From Flavobacteriales bacterium (GTDB lineage Bacteria; Bacteroidota; Bacteroidia; Flavobacteriales_D; Crocinitomicaceae), in the NCBI GenBank assembly GCA_947476955.1, contig CANJSS010000012.1:1-36392 (forward strand): a stretch of DNA of 36,392 nucleotides, in the 5' to 3' direction. The first letter of the stretch is position 1. Every line of letters begins with the position of its first letter. Of the stretch, positions 1,113-12,223 are shown one piece after another. The notes beneath the pieces were generated by a model. The model did no database searches. It was given only the letters and a program-made list of their open reading frames with translations, and was not told the DNA's origin. Made by a program: the position numbers and the translations under genes.

Positions 1113-2078
1113 ATGAGAAAAGGAAACCTTCTGATAATTTCTGCAACTATTCTGCTAAGTGCATGTAATTCAGGCGAAAAAATGAATGTTAGTTTAGAAA
1201 AAAGAGTAACGCTTCCTGAAATACCTTCTGCATCTGGTATTGAATTCCAAGATGGAAATTACTGGCTAATTGGCGATAATTCACCATGGTTATTTGAGTT
1301 AAACAATGCGTTTGAATTAGAAGAAAAACACCCGTTTTTTCCAATGGATAATATCGGTAAAAACGGCATAATTCCAAAAAGTAAAAAACACGATTTTGAG
1401 GCGATGACATCGCTCATCTGGGAAGGAGATTCTGCATTGTTTATTTTTGGATCTGGTTCGAAAACGACTCGTTTCAATGGCGTTCTAGTTAGATTAAAAA
1501 ATGCCGTGCATAAATCTGTTGCCCTACATAAATTTGATTTAACCGATTTTTATTCCACCATCCTCGAAAAAGCAAAATTAAAAGAAGGGGAATTGAATAT
1601 CGAGGCAGCTGCCGTATTAGGTGACTACTTGTTTTTGTTTAATCGTGGAAAAAATAAATTGATTTTTCTCAAAGTACAGCATTTTATCGATTACCTAAAC
1701 GGCACTAAAGAAAAAGTTAAAATAAAAGTAAAAACGATTGATTTGCCTGAAATTGAAGGAATTCGTGCTGGATTTTCTGGGGCGTCGGCGGATGAGAAAT
1801 TTCAACGAATTGTCTTCACTGCTTCTGTTGAAAATACTGCTGATTGGGTTGTAGATGGTCAAGTTTTGGGCAGTTTCATCGGCGTATTGAATATAAATTC
1901 TCTGAAAAATCATGCGGTGCCAAAATGTGTTTTGATTGCAAACAAACAAGAAATTTTGCGTATCAAGGTAGAATCAATAAGTCTCAAGGAATCTTCCGAA
2001 AATTCTTTTCACTGCATCGTTGTAACAGATAGCGATGGTGGAAAATCAGAATTACTTCAACTCAAAGTTCAGTTGTAA
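1113..2078 (+). CDS. lipoprotein, DUF6929-like
   Basis: Predicted lipoprotein of 321 residues with unknown function. I chose ATG 1113 over the in-frame GTG at 1086 because translation then begins directly with a lipoprotein signal, MRKGNLLIISATILLSAC, with the lipidated Cys at residue 18. The mature part carries PSASGIEF followed by IGDNSPWLF, and later HDFEAMTSL and IEAAAVLGDYLFLFNRG. These resemble the Bacteroidota DUF6929 family, which looks like a beta-propeller of the phytase/SdiA-regulated type; I recall this rather than having searched it. The 3' end overlaps the convergent mscS gene by 17 bp. No catalytic motif is recognisable. Confidence 0.7.
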   Translation: MRKGNLLIISATILLSACNSGEKMNVSLEKRVTLPEIPSASGIEFQDGNYWLIGDNSPWLFELNNAFELEEKHPFFPMDNIGKNGIIPKSKKHDFEAMTSLIWEGDSALFIFGSGSKTTRFNGVLVRLKNAVHKSVALHKFDLTDFYSTILEKAKLKEGELNIEAAAVLGDYLFLFNRGKNKLIFLKVQHFIDYLNGTKEKVKIKVKTIDLPEIEGIRAGFSGASADEKFQRIVFTASVENTADWVVDGQVLGSFIGVLNINSLKNHAVPKCVLIANKQEILRIKVESISLKESSENSFHCIVVTDSDGGKSELLQLKVQL

Positions 2079-2598
2079 AATCCTCCTTCGAATCTTCTGT
2101 TTTCATTAAAATTGTACGGTGCAAAACCAAATTGTTCGGAATTGTTACAATTTGATTTTCTTTCGTTCGAACGTGCATAAAGAAAAAGGAAATATCCTCC
2201 AATTTTCCTTCTACCGTATATTCCTTATCAAAAACTTGAATGAATTGCCCAATTCTAAGGGGATGGTTGAAAAACAAAATCAAGCTGGCGGTGATATTTG
2301 ATAAAATTGACCATTGTGCGAAAAATGCTATTCCAAGAATTGTCAAAACCGATGTAAAGAAAACAATCAATTCCTTTCTGTCGATGTTCCAGATTCCTGC
2401 TAAAATTATTCCGCCAACCAATAGAATAAATAAGTTTACTATTTTTTGAGAAATTCTTTTCCGCTGTAAATCAAATTCCAAACTACTTAGAATGCGCTTG
2501 ATAGCTTTGGTAGTAGCTAGTTTAATACTAATCATAGCGAAAATTAAAACAAGTGTTTCAATGATCTCTAGTCGAAGTGTCGTAAATATTTCATTCAT
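2062..2598 (-). CDS. small MscS-family mechanosensitive channel
   Basis: Inner-membrane channel expected to open under membrane tension and release solutes during hypo-osmotic shock. At 178 residues it is a minimal MscS protein. There are two N-terminal hydrophobic segments (about residues 9-30 and 50-70), then a pore-lining helix with the family pattern GIAFFAQWSILSNITASLI, followed by FFNHPLRIGQFIQV at the start of the beta domain and VTIPNNLVL in place of the usual VPIPN segment. The large C-terminal alpha/beta domain of E. coli MscS is missing, as in many Bacteroidota short homologues. Its last 17 bp overlap the 3' end of the convergent lipoprotein gene. Confidence 0.85.
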   Translation of the reverse strand: MNEIFTTLRLEIIETLVLIFAMISIKLATTKAIKRILSSLEFDLQRKRISQKIVNLFILLVGGIILAGIWNIDRKELIVFFTSVLTILGIAFFAQWSILSNITASLILFFNHPLRIGQFIQVFDKEYTVEGKLEDISFFFMHVRTKENQIVTIPNNLVLHRTILMKTEDSKEDFTTEL

Positions 2599-3277: not shown

Positions 3278-3628
3278 ATGAAAATTTTAATTGCTAAAAT
3301 ATTCTGTTTTTTAACAGTACTCTTAATGAGTAGCAGTATTGCATTGTCTTCGATTCTAGAAATTTCTGGAAATTCCAAAATTCAATTAACACAATCAGTA
3401 AAGGAAAAATTACAATTTACCGACGCTCACTCCATTCCAATCGTTTCTTTTGTTCTGGAAAAAGATCCTTACGAGGAGAATGATTTCTTTAAAGATATAA
3501 CGTTTGATTTTTCATTTGAAAAGGATTTCTTCTTTAGTCAGAAAAGAAGTAACGAATATTACACCTACTATTTTTTATCCGTAGCAAAGATTCCACTTTG
3601 GTTATGGATTCGCTGTATTAAAATTTGA
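3278..3628 (+). CDS. small hypothetical secreted protein
   Basis: 116 residues, not recognised. An N-terminal signal peptide is likely (residues 1-25, MKILIAKIFCFLTVLLMSSS). The middle is acidic and Phe-rich (FFKDITFDFSFEKDFFF), and the last 18 residues are hydrophobic and aromatic (VAKIPLWLWIRCI), so the C terminus may insert in or lie on a membrane. The gene stands alone between a divergent unknown gene and the dabA operon, separated from dabA by palindromes. It could be a lineage-specific gene; I see no evidence tying it to carbon uptake. Confidence 0.45.
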   Translation: MKILIAKIFCFLTVLLMSSSIALSSILEISGNSKIQLTQSVKEKLQFTDAHSIPIVSFVLEKDPYEENDFFKDITFDFSFEKDFFFSQKRSNEYYTYYFLSVAKIPLWLWIRCIKI

Positions 3629-3640
3629 TTTAATTTTTTT

Positions 3641-3659
3641 CTATTTGATTATCAAATAG
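3641..3659 (+). promoter_or_regulatory. palindrome upstream of dabA
   Basis: CTATTTGA and TCAAATAG form a perfect 8-bp inverted repeat with a 3-bp spacer. It is not followed by a T tract, so it reads as an operator rather than a terminator. It contains a T-N11-A core of the LysR type, which is only suggestive. Confidence 0.4.
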
Positions 3660-3706
3660 TTACGAATTACCGCCAGGTATTTCAATGAAAATTAAAAGAT
3701 AATTAT

Positions 3707-3725
3707 TTTGCCTTTTGCTGGCAAA
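3707..3725 (+). promoter_or_regulatory. second inverted repeat upstream of dabA
   Basis: TTTGCC and GGCAAA pair across a 7-nt loop, 72 bp before the dabA ATG. It has no T tail. It could be an operator or a leader hairpin; I found no perfect TAnnTTTG box in this interval. Confidence 0.3.
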
Positions 3726-3797
3726 GAACAGGATATGGTTACTCTTTAAATTTTTTGTATTTAAAATAAGTTGTTTCAATTAGAATCAAATTACACT

Positions 3798-6311
3798 ATG
3801 CAAAAAGAAAACAACGATTTTAATGTTCATCGGACATTAGAAGAATTAAAACATTATTTGCCTGCACAGGCACCTTTAAAAGATTTTATTCACCACAATA
3901 CATTGCATGCTTTTCAACAATCAACTTTTTTTGAAGGAATAAATGAAGCCCATGAAATCTTTGGATATAAAGTTTTGCTTTCAATCGATGCGTATCGAAA
4001 ATTATTTAAGGAAGGTAAAATTAATGAAGCTGTATTAGATAGGATTATAGAAGAAAAAGAATTTCCGCTTCAAATTTGGAAGGATAAACTTATCAAACAA
4101 CCATTTCTTGAAGAAGAAATCCCACGAATTGGACTATTAAGAGCTAATTGGAAGTCATTTTACAAGATTGACCTAGATTCATTAGTGCATCCAATTTTAT
4201 TTCGAATTATAGGGAGTTATCTCGATCAGGGCGTATCTATTTGGAATTTTCCGACAAGCGAAATGGGCTTTCTCCAATCCATCAAAGAATTGGAGCGCAA
4301 TAGCCTAGTGAGCTTCTTTAAAACTAAAAGGGTAAAGGATTTTCTGATTAACGAAAACTTCAGCTTGGAAAGTCTGCTGAAAATCGTTGTTGGAGATTCT
4401 AATCTCTACGAGCAATATATTTTTGATCAGCAATTTGCACACCCAGGATGGTCTGGAATTATCTCCGTAATTGAAGAAAATCCAACTGCTCTAATCGATT
4501 CGAAAAAAATAACATTAGAGGAGTTGATTATTTTTGAACTCCTGCTTGAAATTGATGCTTTGGATGATTATTTCGGAACAATTTGGTCGCCTCTCGGCTT
4601 AAAATTAGAAACGTTACCGGAACAACTTTTTACTCCTGTCCAACTGAAAGAATCCAGCGCAGTAAAACAAATTTGGCAGGAAGCTTTCGAATGGACGTAT
4701 TTTGATCAGGTTTTGAAAGGGTTGCAGTATCCTACCCAGATTGCAGAGCAAGCTAAAAAACCAACATTTCAAGCGCTTTTTTGTATCGATGACCGCGAAT
4801 GTTCTATCCGAAGGTATATTGAACACGAGGATGAGGCATGCCAAACATTTGGAACAGCAGGTTTTTTTAATGTGGAATTTTATTTCCAGCCAGAAAACAG
4901 TAATTTTTACACCAAAGTATGCCCTGCGCCAGTAACGCCAAAATACGTGATAAAGGAAATCGAAAATACAAGCCGGGCGAAAACAGATTTCCATTTCGAA
5001 AAACACGCACATGGTTTACTTTCGGGCTGGATATTGACACATACCTTGGGTTTTTGGTCAGCATTGCGATTGTTTTTAGCGGTATTTAAACCAACATTAA
5101 ATGCAGCATCTGTAACTTCCTTTCGCCACATGGATAAACATTCTGTTTTGTCTATTGAGAATATGAATGGGGAAGTTAACGAAAGTGGTTTGCAAATTGG
5201 TTTTACGATCGAAGAAATGGCAAATAGAGTGGAAGGATTACTGAGAAGTATCGGTTTAATTACGGATTTTGCGCCATTGATTTATGTTTTAGGACACGGA
5301 GCGAGTAGCGCGAACAATACGCATTATGCTGGATACGACTGTGGCGCATGTTCCGGTCGACCAGGTTCAGTAAATGCGCGCGTAGTTTCTCACATGGGAA
5401 ATCATCCTAAAGTCCGTCAGATTTTAAAAAGTCGCGGATTAGAGATTCCTGTTTCAACGCAGTTTATTGGCGGAATGCACGATACTTCCCGAGATGAGAT
5501 GGTATACTACGATTTAAAAGTGCTTTCAGACAGTAATTTTAAGCAGCATATTTTAAATGCTAAAAAATTTGAAGCTGCTCTTATTTCAAATGCCAAAGAG
5601 CGTTCGCGGCGTTTTGTATTGATAAATTCAAAGAAATCTGCTCTGAAAATTCACAAAAAGGTAAAACTAAGAACGGTCTCGCTATTTGAACCTCGACCAG
5701 AATTAAACCACGCAACAAACGCGCTTGCATTGGTTGGACGAAGAAATTTCTCGAAAAATATATTTCTCGATCGGAGATCTTTTCTTAATTCCTTCGATTA
5801 TTCCACAGATATGGAAGGTGATTTTTTATTGACAATTTTGAATGCTGTAGCACCAGTTTGTGGGGGAATCAATTTAGAATATTATTTCTCAAGAGTGGAT
5901 AATAATAAACTTGGTGCGGGTACAAAATTACCGCACAATGTGATGGGATTATTGGGCGTTGCAAATGGAATCGACGGAGATTTAAGAACTGGATTGCCAA
6001 GTCAGATGATTGAAGTGCATGATCCTTTGCGTCTTCTTGTTGTTGTCGAACATTTTCCTTCCGTTGTCTTGAAAACAATCCAACGAAATCCTTCTACCTA
6101 TGAATGGTTCAAAAACGATTGGGTAAAACTTGCAGCTGTAAATCCTGAAACAAAGGAAATTTATGTCTTTTCAGAAGAAAAATTTATTCCATATTTTCCT
6201 GTAAACAAAAAACTTCCTGAAGTTTCAGATGTGGAAAAATTGATCGAATCAACCCATGATAATTTACCTGTTTATATTTTAAAAGATGCGAATTATGGAA
6301 TGGTTCATTAA
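3798..6311 (+). CDS. dabA: inorganic carbon transporter subunit DabA (DUF2309)
   Basis: Carbonic-anhydrase-like subunit of the DAB complex, which couples ion flow through DabB to one-way hydration of CO2 to bicarbonate on the cytoplasmic side. The protein has 837 residues from ATG 3798; an in-frame TTG at 3771 has no support. The zinc-site residues are all present: C329 and D331 in FCIDDREC, H500 in LGHGASS, and C515 in GYDCGACSG. The H-to-C distance of 15 matches the H524/C539 pair of Halothiobacillus DabA. Other family segments include HHNTLHAF near the N terminus and GGINLEYYFSRVD near residue 690. dabB starts inside its last codons, which suggests translational coupling. Known in chemoautotrophs and also in heterotrophs. 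Confidence 0.93.
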   Translation: MQKENNDFNVHRTLEELKHYLPAQAPLKDFIHHNTLHAFQQSTFFEGINEAHEIFGYKVLLSIDAYRKLFKEGKINEAVLDRIIEEKEFPLQIWKDKLIKQPFLEEEIPRIGLLRANWKSFYKIDLDSLVHPILFRIIGSYLDQGVSIWNFPTSEMGFLQSIKELERNSLVSFFKTKRVKDFLINENFSLESLLKIVVGDSNLYEQYIFDQQFAHPGWSGIISVIEENPTALIDSKKITLEELIIFELLLEIDALDDYFGTIWSPLGLKLETLPEQLFTPVQLKESSAVKQIWQEAFEWTYFDQVLKGLQYPTQIAEQAKKPTFQALFCIDDRECSIRRYIEHEDEACQTFGTAGFFNVEFYFQPENSNFYTKVCPAPVTPKYVIKEIENTSRAKTDFHFEKHAHGLLSGWILTHTLGFWSALRLFLAVFKPTLNAASVTSFRHMDKHSVLSIENMNGEVNESGLQIGFTIEEMANRVEGLLRSIGLITDFAPLIYVLGHGASSANNTHYAGYDCGACSGRPGSVNARVVSHMGNHPKVRQILKSRGLEIPVSTQFIGGMHDTSRDEMVYYDLKVLSDSNFKQHILNAKKFEAALISNAKERSRRFVLINSKKSALKIHKKVKLRTVSLFEPRPELNHATNALALVGRRNFSKNIFLDRRSFLNSFDYSTDMEGDFLLTILNAVAPVCGGINLEYYFSRVDNNKLGAGTKLPHNVMGLLGVANGIDGDLRTGLPSQMIEVHDPLRLLVVVEHFPSVVLKTIQRNPSTYEWFKNDWVKLAAVNPETKEIYVFSEEKFIPYFPVNKKLPEVSDVEKLIESTHDNLPVYILKDANYGMVH

Positions 6312-8163
6312 TGTATTTATAGTGCTTCCGTTAATTGGATTTCTTGTGAGTCTAATTATTCCGAAGCGAAAAGAGAATCTGTTATCTCGGATTTCCTTTA
6401 CAACGGTTGGAATTCAGCTGTTTGCAGCAGTAGGTTTTATTTCCTTCTGGGTCTTTAACAATGCAAAAGTAATAAACGTCAAGGAGTTTTCTATCTTCAA
6501 AGCAAAGGACTACGATTTCTACGTAGATTTTTATTTTGATAGAATAACTGCAACTTATTTACTTTTAGGGGCTATTCTAACGTTTATTATTACCATTTAC
6601 AGCCGCTATTATTTGCACAGAGAAGAGGGTTACAAACGTTTCTTTAACGTGATTTTATTCTTTTATTTAGGATTTAATATCGTTATATTTTCTGGTAATC
6701 TTGAAACGATGTTTATCGGCTGGGAGATTTTGGGAATTTCCTCTTTTATGTTAATTGCATTCTATCGGGATAGATATCTTCCTGTGAAAAATGCCGTGAA
6801 GGTTTTCTCTATTTACCGTATCGGTGATGTGGGTGTTATTTTAGCAATGTGGTTGAGTCACCATTTATGGCATGAGAATATTTCCTTCTATAAACTTGGG
6901 AATTATGAACTGGTGCATGAACATTTAGCGAATCATTCCATGATTGGTTTTGTGATTTCTATTATGATCTTTATTTCAGCTGCAGCTAAATCTGCACAAT
7001 TTCCTTTTTGCTCATGGTTACCGCGCGCAATGGAAGGTCCAACGCCTTCAAGTGCAATATTTTATGGTTCACTTTCGGTGCATATTGGGGTGTTTCTAAT
7101 GATGAGAACATACCATTTTTGGGAACACCAGATTTCATTTAGAATTTTTGTTGGCAGTATTGGCCTAATTACAAGTTTGACAGCAACTTTTTCGGCGCGG
7201 GTGCAAGCAACAGTCAAAAGTCAAATCGCATATTCCTCGATAGCACAAATTGGTCTGATATTTATTGAAATTGCACTCGGACTCGAAACCATTGCTTTGG
7301 TTCACGTGGCTGGAAATGCATTTCTGAGAACTTACCAATTATTGGTTTCACCATCCGTGGTAAGCTACAAGATTAGAGAGCAGTTTTATAACTACATTCC
7401 TCGCCGCAAAACAATTGAGGATTCTTGGCCAAAACGATTGGAATATTCCTTATATATAATGAGTTTGAAGGAATGGAATCTGGATACGTTTATGTATAAA
7501 AATTTGTGGAATCCCTTAAAACGATTTGGTTCAAAGCTAAGTTTTTTAACCTTTAAAAATGTATTTGTGCTTTTTGCAGTGGTTTTTATTTCGGGAATAA
7601 TCCTAGCCTATAATCCAAAACTGGTCAATCCGACATGGAAGTTCTATCTACCTTTGATTTATGGGTTGTTAGGCTTGGTAATGGTGATAAAAGCATTCAC
7701 AGAAAGAGCAAGTGTTCGCCTAAGTTGGAGTTTGATTATCACCAACCATTTAAGTATTGCACTCGCAATATCTTTCAATGAACATTTTGATTTCTCACAC
7801 CATATTTGGTATCTAAGTGGCGTTCTAGTCTCTGGAATTGTAGGTTATCTATGTATTCAGCGATTGCGAAAATTAGAAAAATGGGTTAGTTTGGATCAAT
7901 TTTACGGCCATATTCAGGAACATCCAAAAATTGCGCTTGTATTTTTAATTGCATGTCTAGGAGTTGCTGGTTTCCCAATTACTCCAACGTTTATCGGAGA
8001 AGATTTGATCTTCTCACACGTGCATGAAAACCAAGTGCTTTTAGCAGCATTTATTGCATTAAGTTTAATCATCAATGGCCTTGCTGCAATTCGCATCTAT
8101 GCACGAATTTTTCTAGGTCCAGCAAGTAAAAATAAGATAGGTGCAGCAAAACGCTCAGCTTAA
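6286..8163 (+). CDS. dabB: DabB, NuoL-like membrane subunit of the DAB carbon transporter
   Basis: Polytopic inner-membrane protein of the proton-conducting NuoL/MrpA family that partners DabA and supplies the cation flux. It has 625 residues from ATG 6286; ATG 6295 (622 residues) is equally possible, and both lie within dabA (26- or 17-bp overlap). Antiporter-family features are E147 in GWEILGISSFMLIAFYRDR and K235 in AAAKSAQFPFCSWLP, followed by RAMEGPTPSSAIFYGSL. Residues 400-600 hold further membrane segments. The usual NuoL histidine region (ALIHA) reads AIFYG here. Length is near that expected for DabB and clearly different from a complex I subunit set, which is absent here. Confidence 0.9.
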   Translation: MRIMEWFINVFIVLPLIGFLVSLIIPKRKENLLSRISFTTVGIQLFAAVGFISFWVFNNAKVINVKEFSIFKAKDYDFYVDFYFDRITATYLLLGAILTFIITIYSRYYLHREEGYKRFFNVILFFYLGFNIVIFSGNLETMFIGWEILGISSFMLIAFYRDRYLPVKNAVKVFSIYRIGDVGVILAMWLSHHLWHENISFYKLGNYELVHEHLANHSMIGFVISIMIFISAAAKSAQFPFCSWLPRAMEGPTPSSAIFYGSLSVHIGVFLMMRTYHFWEHQISFRIFVGSIGLITSLTATFSARVQATVKSQIAYSSIAQIGLIFIEIALGLETIALVHVAGNAFLRTYQLLVSPSVVSYKIREQFYNYIPRRKTIEDSWPKRLEYSLYIMSLKEWNLDTFMYKNLWNPLKRFGSKLSFLTFKNVFVLFAVVFISGIILAYNPKLVNPTWKFYLPLIYGLLGLVMVIKAFTERASVRLSWSLIITNHLSIALAISFNEHFDFSHHIWYLSGVLVSGIVGYLCIQRLRKLEKWVSLDQFYGHIQEHPKIALVFLIACLGVAGFPITPTFIGEDLIFSHVHENQVLLAAFIALSLIINGLAAIRIYARIFLGPASKNKIGAAKRSA

Positions 8164-8193
8164 TTAAATTAGATTAATTTTAAATTATAAACA

Positions 8194-9849
8194 ATGAATT
8201 TGAAAAATAAAAAAAATATTCCTTTGGATGGAATTCAAGGATTAAAACAAAACTTCTCAGCAGATGCTCTATCTGGATTTTTAGTTTTTTTATTAGCATT
8301 ACCTTTAAGTTTAGGTATCGCTGGAGCGAGTGATTTTCCGCCAATTTATGGTTTAATTACCGCAATGATAGGTGGTTTGGTAGTAAGTTTTTTCGCTGGG
8401 TCGCTCTTAACGATAAAAGGTCCAGCCGCAGGATTGATAGTAATTGTTGCAGGAGCTGTGGCTGAATTAGGTCATGGCGATTCTGATCTCGGTTGGAAAT
8501 TAGCGCTTGGAGCAGTTGTAGTTGCCGGAGTTTTACAAATACTTTTTGGAATATTAAAACTCGGTTCTTTAGGTGATTTCTTTCCGCTTTCCGCTGTGCA
8601 TGGCATGCTTGCAGCTATTGGAATAATTATTATTAGTAAACAGTTACACATTCTTGTAGGAATGAATCCACTGACAGAATTAGGAAAACCAATGGTTGAG
8701 CCAGTTGAATTATTAGCGGAGTTAAAAAACACTTTTGCTAATTTTTTTAAATATAAGGATGTCGCAATTGTCGGATTAACAAGTTTAGTTATCGTTTTCG
8801 GTTGGCCAATGTTACCTGTTAAAGCACTTAAAAAAATCCCTGCTGCGTTGGTTGTATTAATTGTTGCAATTCCTCTAGCAATGTACTTGGGAATTCATAA
8901 CATAGCAGAAGTCAAAAATGAAGCTGGCGAAGTAATCAAAAAAGGGTTTGCGCCACTTTTGGAATTTAAAAAAGGTTTTGCAGATATTATTGGTGTGAAT
9001 GTAAGTTTTGATGGCTTTTCTCAAACCGGAACCTTTATTAAATTTGTAGTAATGTTTGCTCTTGTAGGAAGTCTTGAAGCTTTATTGACAATTAAAGCAA
9101 TCGATATGCTTGACCCTTTCAAAAGAAAATCAAACTCAGATAAAGATCTTATTGCTGTTGGAATTGGAAATGTTATTGCTGGAATTTTAGGCGGTTTACC
9201 AATGATTAGCGAGGTTGCAAGATCTTCTGCAAATGTTAGTAATGGAGGTAAAACCCGCTGGGCTAATTTCTTCCATGGTATTTTTATATTACTTTTCTTA
9301 TTGTTCGCTGTATATTTTAGTGATTTAATCCCCAAAGCAGCCTTGGCAGCAATGCTAATTGGAGTTGGATGGAAATTAGCGCACCCAAGAGAATTTGGCC
9401 ACATGGCGAAAATAGGGAACGATCAAATTGCAGTATTTGTTATTACAATTTTAGTTACTTTGGCGACTGACTTATTAATTGGAATTGCGGCTGGAATTTT
9501 ATTAAAATTGATACTGCACATTGGACGAGGTGTTGCTTTGAGAAGTTTATTTCACGCCAGAACTCAAGTAGATGGAAATACCGTGAAAGTAAAAGGCGCA
9601 GCAGTATTTAGTAACTTTATTCCAGTAAAAAAAGAGTTATTGAAGTTTCCATATTCATCAGATGTAATTTTTGATGTCCGTGATTGCGTTTTGGTTGACC
9701 ATTCGGTAATTGAAACTTTACACCATCTAAAAGATGATTTTGCAAGTGAAGGTGGTAGTTTGAATATTTTGGGAATAGATGAGTTTAGACCAATTTCCAA
9801 GCACAAACTTTCCGTTATTAGAAAACACAAAAACAATGCAGTAAAATGA
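8194..9849 (+). CDS. SulP-family anion transporter, probable bicarbonate importer
   Basis: SLC26/SulP transporter of 551 residues. The N-terminal part has the family pattern FLLALPLSLGIAGASDFPPIYGLITAMIGG in broken form (about residues 32-65) and the GPAAGLIVIVAGA segment near 75. About ten further hydrophobic stretches follow to residue 440. From about 460 to 540 there is a compact STAS domain (VIFDVRDCVLVDHSVIETL). SulP proteins carry sulfate, bicarbonate or other anions; position directly after dabAB, with no promoter in the 30-bp gap, favours bicarbonate (BicA-like), but substrate cannot be proved from sequence. The stop codon overlaps the next start (ATGA). Confidence 0.85.
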   Translation: MNLKNKKNIPLDGIQGLKQNFSADALSGFLVFLLALPLSLGIAGASDFPPIYGLITAMIGGLVVSFFAGSLLTIKGPAAGLIVIVAGAVAELGHGDSDLGWKLALGAVVVAGVLQILFGILKLGSLGDFFPLSAVHGMLAAIGIIIISKQLHILVGMNPLTELGKPMVEPVELLAELKNTFANFFKYKDVAIVGLTSLVIVFGWPMLPVKALKKIPAALVVLIVAIPLAMYLGIHNIAEVKNEAGEVIKKGFAPLLEFKKGFADIIGVNVSFDGFSQTGTFIKFVVMFALVGSLEALLTIKAIDMLDPFKRKSNSDKDLIAVGIGNVIAGILGGLPMISEVARSSANVSNGGKTRWANFFHGIFILLFLLFAVYFSDLIPKAALAAMLIGVGWKLAHPREFGHMAKIGNDQIAVFVITILVTLATDLLIGIAAGILLKLILHIGRGVALRSLFHARTQVDGNTVKVKGAAVFSNFIPVKKELLKFPYSSDVIFDVRDCVLVDHSVIETLHHLKDDFASEGGSLNILGIDEFRPISKHKLSVIRKHKNNAVK

Positions 9850-10595
9850 GAAAAATATTTCCAATTTTAGCATTTCTTTTTTGCTCGAACTATTTCTTTT
9901 CTCAAAAAGAAATTTCCACACAATCCCACGCTTGGGTGATGTATAATGGAAACCATAAACTTACGGAACGCTGGGGTATACATACGGAATACCAATGGCG
10001 CAGAAGTGATTTATTTGAAAATTGGCAACAATCTCTCTTGCGATTAGGAGTAGACTATTATACCAAACAAAATACCCAAATAACACTTGGCTATGGATGG
10101 ATTCATTCGTTTCAATATGGTGAACAACCTATAATTCACAGCAGTAACGAGCACAGAATTTGGGAGCAATATATCCTGAAAAATAAGATTGGAAGGGTAG
10201 AAATTCAACACCGATATAGGTTGGAACAACGTTTCATTGAAAATTGGACTAAAAATTCGGATGGTTCCTTTCTCCAAGATGGTTTTTTGTTTCGCCAGCG
10301 ATTCCGTTACAGATTTTTACTAACCGTTCCTTTATCTCGAAAAGAATTGAAAGATAACACACTTTTTCTCTCGGTTTACGACGAACCTTTTTTAGGTTTT
10401 GGAAAGGGAATCGGTAAGAATATTTTGGATCAAAATCGATTGTATGGTGCAATTGGGTGGAGATTCACTAAAAATTTCCAAGCGCAATTGGGGTATTTGA
10501 ACCAATTTATTGTAAAATCAGATGGTGTTAAAATGGAGCGAAACCATACACTTCAAATAGGCGTAACCTACAACTTGGATTTTACAAAGCACTAA
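9846..10595 (+). CDS. DUF2490-family outer-membrane beta-barrel protein
   Basis: 249 residues starting with a signal peptide (MRKIFPILAFLFCSNYFFSQ, cleavage probably after residue 20). The mature protein alternates aromatic and charged residues in short strands and contains WGIHTEYQWRRSD, RLGVDYYT and IGWRFTKNFQAQLGYLNQF, features of DUF2490 barrels. The function of DUF2490 is not known. It overlaps sulP by 4 bp, so it belongs to the Dab/SulP operon and may be an outer-membrane channel serving it; that is inference. It is the last gene before a strong terminator. Confidence 0.8.
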   Translation: MRKIFPILAFLFCSNYFFSQKEISTQSHAWVMYNGNHKLTERWGIHTEYQWRRSDLFENWQQSLLRLGVDYYTKQNTQITLGYGWIHSFQYGEQPIIHSSNEHRIWEQYILKNKIGRVEIQHRYRLEQRFIENWTKNSDGSFLQDGFLFRQRFRYRFLLTVPLSRKELKDNTLFLSVYDEPFLGFGKGIGKNILDQNRLYGAIGWRFTKNFQAQLGYLNQFIVKSDGVKMERNHTLQIGVTYNLDFTKH

Positions 10596-10617
10596 AATAA
10601 GTTTAATTAACAATAAG

Positions 10618-10650
10618 AAAGTCGGGTTGTTTTAACAGCTCGACTTTTCT
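10618..10650 (+). terminator. terminator of the dab operon
   Basis: AAAGTCG and CGACTTT enclose a further paired inner stem (including GTTGTT with AACAGC, and wobble pairs) around a 4-nt loop, 13 pairs in all, ending in a short T run. It lies 23 bp after the DUF2490 stop and directly before the next promoter. Confidence 0.8.
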
Positions 10651-10679: not shown

Positions 10680-11282
10680 ATGACAGAAGAAATTAAAGCA
10701 GTAAGCTACTGCGTTGGGATGAGTATTGCAGGAAGCTTGATGCAGCAGGATTTAGACGGGATTTCTCCAGAGGTTTTAGCAGAAGCAATTGCCGATGCTT
10801 TCGAAGGGAAAGATCCAAAATATACGCCGGAAATGGCAAATACAATCATACAAAATTACCTACAAAATGCTGGGGAAGCTAAATTTGGCCAAAACAGAGA
10901 ATTAGGCGTAGCATTTTTGCACGAAAATAAAACGAAAAGTGGAATTCATACAACTGCTTCAGGTCTTCAGTATGAGGTTATAACTCCAGGTGATGGTGAA
11001 AAACCTTCAGCAGCAGATACGGTTTCAGTGCATTACCATGGTACGTTGATTGATGGAACAGTTTTCGATAGTTCTGTGGAACGAAATCAACCTGCAACTT
11101 TTGGTGTACACCAAGTAATTCCGGGATGGACAGAAGCTTTGCAATTAATGCCGGTCGGTTCAAAATATAGATTGTATATCCCGCAAGAATTGGCGTATGG
11201 CGCAAATCCGCACCCAGGAGGACCAATAAAACCTTTCAGTGCTTTGATCTTTGATGTTGAACTTTTAGCTATTACACAATGA
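10680..11282 (+). CDS. FKBP-type peptidyl-prolyl isomerase, FklB-like
   Basis: Prolyl cis-trans isomerase of 200 residues assisting protein folding. I start at ATG 10680; the in-frame TTG at 10659 lies inside the promoter box. Residues 1-95 form the helical dimerisation domain seen in FklB/FkpA (AVSYCVGMSIAGSL, then ISPEVLAEAIADAFEG). Residues 100-200 form the FKBP domain, with VHYHGTLIDGTVFDSS, VIPGWTEALQLMPVGSKY and IPQELAYG, covering the conserved Asp, Trp and Tyr of the binding pocket. No signal peptide is present, so it should be cytoplasmic. It overlaps the next FKBP gene by 4 bp (ATGA). Confidence 0.9.
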   Translation: MTEEIKAVSYCVGMSIAGSLMQQDLDGISPEVLAEAIADAFEGKDPKYTPEMANTIIQNYLQNAGEAKFGQNRELGVAFLHENKTKSGIHTTASGLQYEVITPGDGEKPSAADTVSVHYHGTLIDGTVFDSSVERNQPATFGVHQVIPGWTEALQLMPVGSKYRLYIPQELAYGANPHPGGPIKPFSALIFDVELLAITQ

Positions 11283-12223
11283 AAAAAATGATTTTTATTT
11301 TCCTTCCACTCCTTATAATGAGTTGTGGAAATAAAACAGAACAAGAAGAGGAGGTTGTAAATCTAGTTTCAGAGAAAGACCGACTTTCCTATGTTTTAGG
11401 TGCAATGAATGCAAAAACTATTGTTGGAACGCAAGATCCAAATATAGATCGCTTAGATATGGCAGAGGTGGCAAAAGGATTTGCTGGAAATATGAATAAC
11501 AATAAACCAATCGATTGCGAGGCTACATTAACACAGTTATTCGGCCCCAACTTTCAGGATTTTGATTCAACCTACGCTAAACAAGGCGCACAATGTCTAG
11601 GTAAATTAACGGCATACGCATTTTACCAAGATATGAAACAAATGAAAAGTCTAGAAATGATAGACTTGAAAATGGTGAATATCGGTTTCCGACATGGATT
11701 ATTGAAAAAAGACACACTTATTTCTGAGGAGAACAAACAAAAAATGATTCAAGATTTCATTAAAGTTTTAAACGTGAAGAATGGCAAGATAATGATGGAT
11801 CAAGCCAAAAAAATATCAGGCGCACAAGTATTTGATAATGGCATTGTTTTGCAGGTTATTTCCGAAGGAAAAGGTGGAAGCCCAAGTGCAACAGATGATG
11901 TTAAAGTGGAATATATTCTAACTTCTGCGACAGGAGATACAGTGCAAAGTTCGTACGAAATGAAAAAACAAAAAGGAACTACAGATGCTGTTGCATTAAA
12001 GCTTGACGGTGGCGTAATCCCGGGTTGGACGTATATTGTTCCAAAAATGAAAAAAGGCGGTAAATACCGCGTTTACATTCCTTGGCAGTTAGCGTATGGC
12101 GAGCAAATGGGACGCGAGTCCTTGTGTTTCGTAATTGAATTGGTAGATTATGCAAAAGCAGGGAGTTTTGTAAAACCAGAGCCACCGCAACAAGCTATGC
12201 CGCAGCAAGGTCAAGGATTCTAA
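11279..12223 (+). CDS. FKBP-type prolyl isomerase lipoprotein, FkpA-like
   Basis: 314-residue exported companion of the preceding isomerase. The signal MKKMIFIFLPLLIMSC has its lipidation Cys at residue 16. Residues 35-170 resemble the FkpA helical N-domain (DRLSYVLGAMNAKTI), and the FKBP domain runs from about 185 to 295 (VKVEYILTSATGDTVQSSY, GVIPGWTYIVPKM, YIPWQLAYGE). The usual FDSS motif reads VQSSY, so the catalytic Asp of the pocket is replaced and activity may be reduced. The tail is rich in Pro and Gln. It is translationally coupled to the upstream isomerase by an ATGA overlap and followed by a strong terminator. Confidence 0.88.
   Translation: MKKMIFIFLPLLIMSCGNKTEQEEEVVNLVSEKDRLSYVLGAMNAKTIVGTQDPNIDRLDMAEVAKGFAGNMNNNKPIDCEATLTQLFGPNFQDFDSTYAKQGAQCLGKLTAYAFYQDMKQMKSLEMIDLKMVNIGFRHGLLKKDTLISEENKQKMIQDFIKVLNVKNGKIMMDQAKKISGAQVFDNGIVLQVISEGKGGSPSATDDVKVEYILTSATGDTVQSSYEMKKQKGTTDAVALKLDGGVIPGWTYIVPKMKKGGKYRVYIPWQLAYGEQMGRESLCFVIELVDYAKAGSFVKPEPPQQAMPQQGQGF

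Follow-up and report, generated by a model that had tools for sequence, protein, structure and literature searches.

Positions 1 to 36,392 of contig CANJSS010000012.1 (assembly GCA_947476955.1, a Flavobacteriales bacterium of the Crocinitomicaceae), hereafter the window, contain on the forward strand dabA, dabB, sulP and a DUF2490 gene, four ORFs within 3798-10595. Together with a short leader gene they probably form a five-gene inorganic-carbon uptake operon (DabAB, SulP, a DUF2490 channel and the leader), a reading to which we assign a probability of about 0.6. As regards substrates and direction of flux, DabA-DabB would hydrate CO2 to bicarbonate in the cytoplasm, powered by an ion gradient, SulP would bring bicarbonate over the inner membrane, and the DUF2490 barrel would be the outer-membrane channel admitting the anion to the periplasm. 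The unit would be the likely bicarbonate source for carboxylases in a genome in which no alpha- or beta-type carbonic anhydrase was found, and translation and export of the leader may control whether dabA is expressed, in the manner of CutF and cutO. Operons of this DAB type are known, and the present one is a variant; the aspects that merit testing are the proposed outer-membrane channel slot, the residue changes in DabB and the leader.

Gene layout of the operon

The features considered here are the following.

3278-3628 (+): leader gene, 116 aa, with a signal-like hydrophobic start, an acidic middle and a C-terminal tail KIPLWLWIRCIKI
3629-3797 (+): spacer between leader and dabA; predicted hairpins, folding z -2.2 and -2.7
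3798-6311 (+): dabA, class I ('clade C'); PF10070, 703 bits; solved DabA2 (9rd0_A) matched with E 2.2e-56
4782-4796 (+): dabA codons C329, D331 and R333 (Zn ligand and Asp-Arg dyad), invariant in 37/37 class I and 23/23 class II sequences
5295-5342 (+): dabA codons H500 to C515 (Zn ligands), from the alignment to DabA2 and the class columns
6286-8163 (+): dabB, NuoL-like subunit; PF00361 (Proton_antipo_M), 140 bits; 9rd0_B (DabB2) matched with E 1.8e-27, ranked below NuoL chains
6724-6726 (+): dabB E147 (DabB2 I151); Glu in 35/35 class I, 0/21 class II
7063-7065 (+): dabB Y260 (DabB2 H260); Tyr in 35/35 class I, His in 21/21 class II
7315-7329 (+): dabB N344 and R348 (DabB2 H343 and K347); 35/35 class I, 0/21 class II
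8194-9849 (+): sulP, anion transporter; PF00916 (Sulfate_transp), 213 bits; top PDB sequence match 6ki1, E 6.3e-22
9846-10595 (+): DUF2490 outer-membrane beta-barrel; PF10677, 175 bits (gathering score 29.8); seven invariant Arg
10617-10648 (+): terminator-like hairpin, 14 pairs

A preliminary description of this region, made from the sequence alone, had joined the four genes by overlaps or a 30-nt gap and a common terminator, and its coordinates agree with ours. The dabA and dabB genes overlap by 26 nt, or by 17 nt should the second ATG of dabB (6295) be the start, dabB and sulP are 30 nt apart, sulP and the DUF2490 gene overlap by 4 nt, and the 14-pair hairpin follows. The start of dabA was taken as the ATG at 3798, the alternative in the ORF list being a TTG at 3771. 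The earlier account was incomplete: it overlooked the leader ORF, a fifth gene on the same strand 169 nt 5' of dabA, and it mentioned neither the changed DabB residues nor the seeming absence of carbonic anhydrase. The source genome is a 2.7-Mb draft (95.5% complete) with one DabA match and, among the matches listed, one SulP and four DUF2490 proteins. The closest DabA relatives among the matches listed come from Crocinitomicaceae and Flavobacteriales assemblies and are at most 73% identical.

Two classes of dab loci

Genomes with DabA numbered 30 of 395 sampled across the phylum and 36 of 150 of the order. We collected 144 loci, six of which could not be classed (L002, L005, L009, L031, L086 and L121); L004 was left out of all locus tables, its dabA not having been called by the gene caller. 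In class I loci, dabA is followed by a dabB of about 622 aa, which is the order of the present operon, whereas in class II a shorter dabB precedes dabA, often beside a divergent gene that is LysR-like by eye. The 117 class I loci were reduced to 112 by removing five copies and to 84 with full context by dropping 28 with short context. The 80 named loci are those closest to the present operon, from the matches listed, and frequencies are therefore biased; 31 class I loci, the G-set, form the part that was drawn by taxonomy and not by similarity. A class I dabA-dabB pair also occurs outside Bacteroidota, in a record named Azotobacter chroococcum (L131).

The class split is not without precedent. 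The 2017 COGNAT paper, in the part available, divided ybcC-nuoL operons into classes and placed SulP (COG0659) with the first kind, 'clade C' (PMC5700660). In this clade dabA lies 5' of dabB with a sulfate-permease gene near, and the present operon belongs here; an outer-membrane slot, a leader and the residue differences are not described in the available part of the clade C account. A search of open-licence PubMed Central found no relevant paper on Bacteroidota DAB-SulP loci or on such leaders.

A conserved active site and an altered path in DabB

DabA residues C329, D331, R333, H500 and C515 align with C351, D353, R355, H524 and C539 of DabA2 (9rd0 alignment), so that C329, D331, H500 and C515 stand exactly where the preliminary description had put them. 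The Zn-ligand set (Cys, His, Cys) and Asp-Arg dyad of DAB transporters are thus present. The Zn site is invariant in the aligned columns of both classes, as is C518 of DabA. A NuoL/Mrp-like DabB adjoins DabA, as is characteristic of DAB systems, and is encoded by the overlapping gene. In all these respects the operon resembles DAB2 of Halothiobacillus neapolitanus (PDB 9rd0; PMC13144422), which shares the DabA Zn ligands, the Asp-Arg dyad, a NuoL-like DabB and a two-subunit core; the available part of PMC13144422 does not describe SulP, a barrel or a leader with DAB2, whereas the present operon has all three.

The two systems differ in DabB. Relative to DAB2, class I DabBs carry I151E, H260Y, H343N and K347R (35/35 in class I, 0/21 in class II), whereas all 21 class II DabBs have His, His and Lys at the H260, H343 and K347 positions and never Glu at the I151 position. 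According to the available part of PMC13144422, substituting alanine for H260, H343 or K347, or Glu for I151, lowers DAB2 function, and the solved DabB2 has Ile151 where DabB here has E147. The antiporter Glu and Lys noted earlier in DabB are indeed present as E147 and K235; E147 is, however, no DAB hallmark. Other positions of the DAB2 proton path, S256, K310, S316 and H339, are kept here as S256, K311, S317 and H340. The class I DabA finger is 14 alignment columns shorter and lacks an equivalent of Glu444, which part of class II also lacks. With Y260, N344 and R348 differing and no acidic residue at the E444 place, the DAB2 subtype is excluded for the present DabAB on sequence grounds, while DabA family membership stands (703 bits). 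Judged by its sequences, class I belongs to the DAB systems but has a changed path in DabB.

These replacements bear on the coupling ion. Together with variability at the S316 position (Ala in 13 of 35 class I DabBs), the loss of H260, H343 and K347 means that coupling may differ from that of DAB2, a point against the proposed uptake reading. Class I DabAB might then not be proton-driven and might couple otherwise, for example through sodium or bicarbonate symport. The four replaced DabB positions and the shorter DabA finger speak for this alternative, as does the proposal, in the introduction of PMC13144422, that MpsAB is a Na+/HCO3- symporter. We nevertheless consider it unlikely, given that the Zn site and Asp-Arg dyad are invariant and the equivalents of K310, H339 and K235 are kept. 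The DabB changes make the coupling ion (proton, sodium or other) testable against DAB2.

SulP as the proposed inner-membrane bicarbonate transporter

A SulP gene lies within six genes of dabA in 68 of the 84 class I loci and in 28 of the 31 G-set loci. None of SulP, DUF2490 and the c7 porin described below was found in the 21 class II loci. Since the dabA-SulP linkage has been described for 'clade C' in the available part of PMC5700660, it is not new. The preliminary description had proposed an envelope-spanning inorganic-carbon uptake unit: recurrence of SulP and of the barrel lends this support, although the unit as drawn was incomplete and one of its links had already been published.

The substrate of this SulP is less readily assigned. 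By score the protein is a member of the SulP family that does not reach BicA equivalog status (135 bits, curated BicA cut-off 880). The transporter could instead carry sulfate or another anion, and the operon would then be a broader anion or pH-homeostasis unit and not one for carbon uptake. In keeping with this, SulP proteins occur in at least 145 of 150 genomes of the order, and RND efflux genes, too, can have a leader-family gene in front of them; the score, however, falls below the sulfate-permease and DauA cut-offs as well. Several observations make this alternative improbable: the top PDB match, 6ki1, is a protein that we take to be Synechocystis BicA (its PDB name is 'low affinity sulfate transporter'), SulP is followed by a Pro_CA gene in L198, and SulP pairs recurrently with a CO2 hydrase family. 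The 16 of 84 class I loci without SulP within six genes count against the proposed unit.

We considered whether the long SulP forms are SulP-carbonic-anhydrase fusions and rejected this, as PF00484 was absent from the three that were scanned (L047, L024 and L060). Separately, L043 has a nearby 752-aa frame on the same contig with a Pro_CA match, perhaps a SulP-carbonic anhydrase fusion. Another form of small protein, rich in proline at its ends (PPP or PP), stands before SulP in L082, L083, L139, L043, L193 and L198.

Two alternative barrels in a probable outer-membrane slot

Within six genes of dabA, the 84 class I loci contain DUF2490 in 28 cases, a porin of about 450 aa (c7) in 21 and both in none. 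These counts use strict labels, one weak label each having been removed from 29 and 22. A directly adjacent same-strand barrel is DUF2490 in 27/84 loci and c7 in 20/84. Of class I operons in Flavobacterium, L142 and L145 carry DUF2490 and L128 carries the c7 porin. The preliminary description had proposed a neighborhood survey in which missing DUF2490-dabA linkage would count against the unit; linkage proved recurrent. In the G-set, the barrels are DUF2490 in 12 and c7 in 6 of the 31 loci. Zero co-occurrence has a probability of 4e-5 under independence of loci, which does not hold. On a quick DabA tree, for which long-branch warnings apply, the label changes between DUF2490 and c7 at least 11 times among the barrel-bearing rows. 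Gene order is variable, with SulP and the barrel before dabA, after it or divergent, and DUF2490 stays beside SulP across several of these orders (L025, L080, L084, L087 and L103). DUF2490 and c7 thus occupy one slot as alternative porin-like barrels.

Structure prediction gave a confident barrel for DUF2490 (AlphaFold2, pLDDT 88.1), with PcoB (Z 15.0), NanC (14.2) and KdgM (13.5) as the nearest folds, and seven Arg residues are invariant in an alignment of 18 sequences. NanC and KdgM pass anions. Among PDB sequences the only relative of DUF2490 was OmpT (E 0.34). The NanC and KdgM porins (PDB 2wjr and 4fqe) may resemble the modeled DUF2490 in fold and size, but PcoB scores higher and autotransporter barrels nearly as high; their identity to DUF2490 is just 11-12%. 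The c7 model (pLDDT 79.8) is nearest in fold to the phosphate porin OprP (Foldseek E 1.3e-12); c7 has no PDB sequence relative at E 5 and no Pfam match, its identity to the OprP/OprO porins (PDB 2o4v and 4rjw) is 12-13%, and it is absent from the present window. DUF2490 is listed as TC 1.B.81, its function not established according to the available part of PMC4827864.

The sharing of one slot by two unrelated porin-like folds points to the passage of a solute, bicarbonate being the simplest candidate. Although NanC and KdgM carry anions, PcoB, the best match, is a copper transporter, and the substrate cannot be read from the fold by itself. Of the two roles offered earlier for the barrel, bicarbonate passage is favored over stabilizing a complex, because two folds share the slot and because some genomes with no DabA match have a solitary DUF2490 at the dab site. 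These lone copies came to light among 40 DUF2490 copies with examined neighbors, hand-picked as high-scoring rows away from the listed dabA places. Six of the 40 (L148, L153, L154, L162, L164 and L168) stand alone at the position that carries the dab operon in sister genomes, their own genomes having given no DabA match; this reflects either dab loss or insertion beside an older DUF2490. They led us to reject DUF2490 as an obligate DAB subunit. Four further copies adjoin dabB or SulP pieces, one lies one gene from SulP, two directly precede a Pro_CA (beta-carbonic anhydrase) gene whose product begins like a lipoprotein, and one comes directly after a bestrophin gene; these last three count in favor of the proposed uptake reading. 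The remaining 26 have other neighbors.

Some of this weighs against a dedicated channel: the lone copies, the 26 other neighborhoods, the presence of DUF2490 in at least 143 of 150 genomes of the order, the copper transporter as best fold match with autotransporter barrels also at Z of about 13, and the 37 of 84 class I loci without an adjacent barrel. DUF2490 may thus be a general outer-membrane channel or a passenger on the transcript, with carbon uptake left to dabA-dabB (with SulP). This is rather unlikely in view of the 27 adjacent loci, the sharing of one slot with an OprP-like porin without co-occurrence, the repeated switches and the constancy of DUF2490 beside SulP. If DUF2490 is the channel for bicarbonate, the family gains a testable job and the outer membrane enters inorganic-carbon uptake.

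Carbonic anhydrases in the order

In the source genome, neither PF00484 nor PF00194 gave a match; gamma-type enzymes lay outside the search, and at 95.5% completeness the absence is not certain. For comparison we used genomes of the order with a completeness of 90% or more and a contamination of 5% or less. PF00484 is missing from 10 of 28 class I carriers, 12 of 87 genomes without dabA and 0 of 4 class II carriers; the difference between the first two has a p of 0.024, uncorrected for kinship. Two of 30 class I genomes gave a PF00194 match. Negatives for the beta-type enzyme in dabA carriers were read off the full list of positives. The pattern fits DAB as bicarbonate source here, though most carriers have both: 25 of the 36 dabA-bearing genomes of the order also encode a beta-carbonic anhydrase, which is a point against the proposed reading. 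If the proposed uptake operon is real, some heterotrophic Bacteroidota obtain bicarbonate not from carbonic anhydrase but through a pump that works with a transporter and a channel in the outer membrane.

The leader gene and its family

The leader has no Pfam or NCBIfam match. Comparison of upstream ORFs places it in a family of fast-evolving, probably exported proteins of about 120 aa with a conserved C-terminal tail. A family model (A2, which includes the present leader sequence) matched the source genome solely at 3278-3628. Same-strand small ORFs of leader form stand directly before dabA in 53 of the 84 class I loci and before SulP in 12 more, and six loci have one before dabA plus another before SulP; candidates were selected as upstream ORFs, so that the upstream position is partly built in. 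By the definition used, 19 of the 84 loci have no leader, which counts against the proposed five-gene reading.

Of 96 members, 93% combine a hydrophobic start with an acidic box; among 379 control ORFs the share is 4%. A model of the tail, built from 31 of the leader ORFs, recognized, at E<1e-3, 23 of the 75 held-out ORFs left after removal of copies, versus one of 755 other small ORFs, and that single match is itself an ORF 5' of dabA, in L021. The distance from the hydrophobic segment to the C-terminus is 96 residues (interquartile range 91.5-100, n=91) at a mean column identity of 18%, conservation residing mainly in the tail, the signal-like start and the acidic box at similar spacing. Thirteen leader pairs were compared: in the closer ones synonymous sites differ but the final 15 residues hardly change; between the present leader and those of L047 and L101, just 7 of 15 tail residues are identical.

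Searching 150 genomes yielded 19 places (E up to 4e-4), nine of them before dabA; some of these nine are sequences of the model. The ten others lie directly 5' of MFP-RND genes (six), SulP, a CitMHS transporter, a TonB receptor and a Band_7 gene. The MFP-RND cases are L187, L188, L189, L190, L194 and L195, with Pfam run on the neighbors in L187, L188 and L194. Proteins similar to HYC_CC_PP (NF047658) precede a TonB-receptor-like gene at L128:5263-5727, L142:5365-5775 and L029:14012-14419; the HYC_CC_PP tail is weakly like the dab leader tail (E 0.02-0.8).

The closest known parallel is CutF, the leader of cutFOG. According to the available part of PMC9973294, the small CutF protein of Rhodobacter detects copper while it is being exported and thereby allows a stem ahead of cutO to open; CutF-like proteins, collected there by a signal and PP filter, include Bacteroidota members, possess Cys/His sites and are often encoded ahead of RND genes. 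Shared with CutF are small size, probable export, a signal-like start, a same-strand position 5' of the target, a conserved tail and a structured spacer. The layout of CutF-like proteins (<150 aa, a signal at the N-terminus and a gene on the same strand no more than 1000 nt away) is also that of the present leader, with 116 aa, a signal-like start and dabA 169 nt on. The leader differs in having an acidic box, a single Pro in its tail and no predicted hiding stem; PP in the last 15 residues and a Cys/His metal site are both missing, and for this reason we did not file it as CutF-like. Across the family, 16 of 91 members have PP in the last 20 residues.

Spacer structure gives a mixed picture. 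Folding z averages -2.16 in members (n=88) and -1.32 in controls (n=130; p 4.6e-5). For gaps of 30-150 nt, pairing between the downstream start and the end of the leader is predicted in 23% of 81 members and 8% of 156 controls (over all gaps, 23% of 93 and 10% of 220). Two points count against control of the CutF kind: the excess of structure is just moderate over controls that are themselves structured, and in the window the predicted pairing of the dabA start with the leader 3' end is 0.09, which predicts an unhidden start, so that a CutF-type mechanism is a hypothesis. A role of the spacer as transcription attenuator was rejected, terminator-like hairpins occurring in 12% of 93 members and 8% of 220 controls.

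A further-reaching reading, less likely than not, is that the leader represents a Bacteroidota family of exported, length-constrained nascent-chain sensors outside the CutF-like set, controlling ion-gradient-driven transport genes (DAB, SulP, SulP-carbonic anhydrase and RND efflux) and here tuning bicarbonate supply. The leader would read an extracytoplasmic cue, such as pH, carbonate, proton-motive force or export rate, and slowed translation at its C-terminal tail would open dabA translation. The small gene might instead encode a periplasmic accessory protein or chaperone. It is conserved and probably exported, folding predictions leave the dabA start of the window accessible, and the small gene does not always come first: of 100 members with an upstream neighbor, 25 have a same-strand gene within 100 nt (in 44 the neighbor is on the opposite strand); DAB1 of Halothiobacillus, too, has an extra small membrane protein according to the introduction of PMC13144422. 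This alternative appears doubtful, however, because members precede transporters as different as DAB, SulP, RND efflux, CitMHS and TonB receptor genes, which makes a subunit of each unlikely, and because conservation is concentrated in the spaced elements described above. A sensor role, if correct, would extend exported nascent-chain sensing from copper to inorganic carbon and efflux.

Neighboring genes

Downstream (3') of the operon lie two FKBP-type isomerase genes, 10680-11282 and 11279-12223, and a similar pair follows the operon in L047. The first exceeds the NCBIfam BamJ cut-off (115 vs 100 bits). On the opposite strand, 2062-2598 (-) encodes a short MscS-like protein of 178 aa whose Pfam match is the beta-domain.

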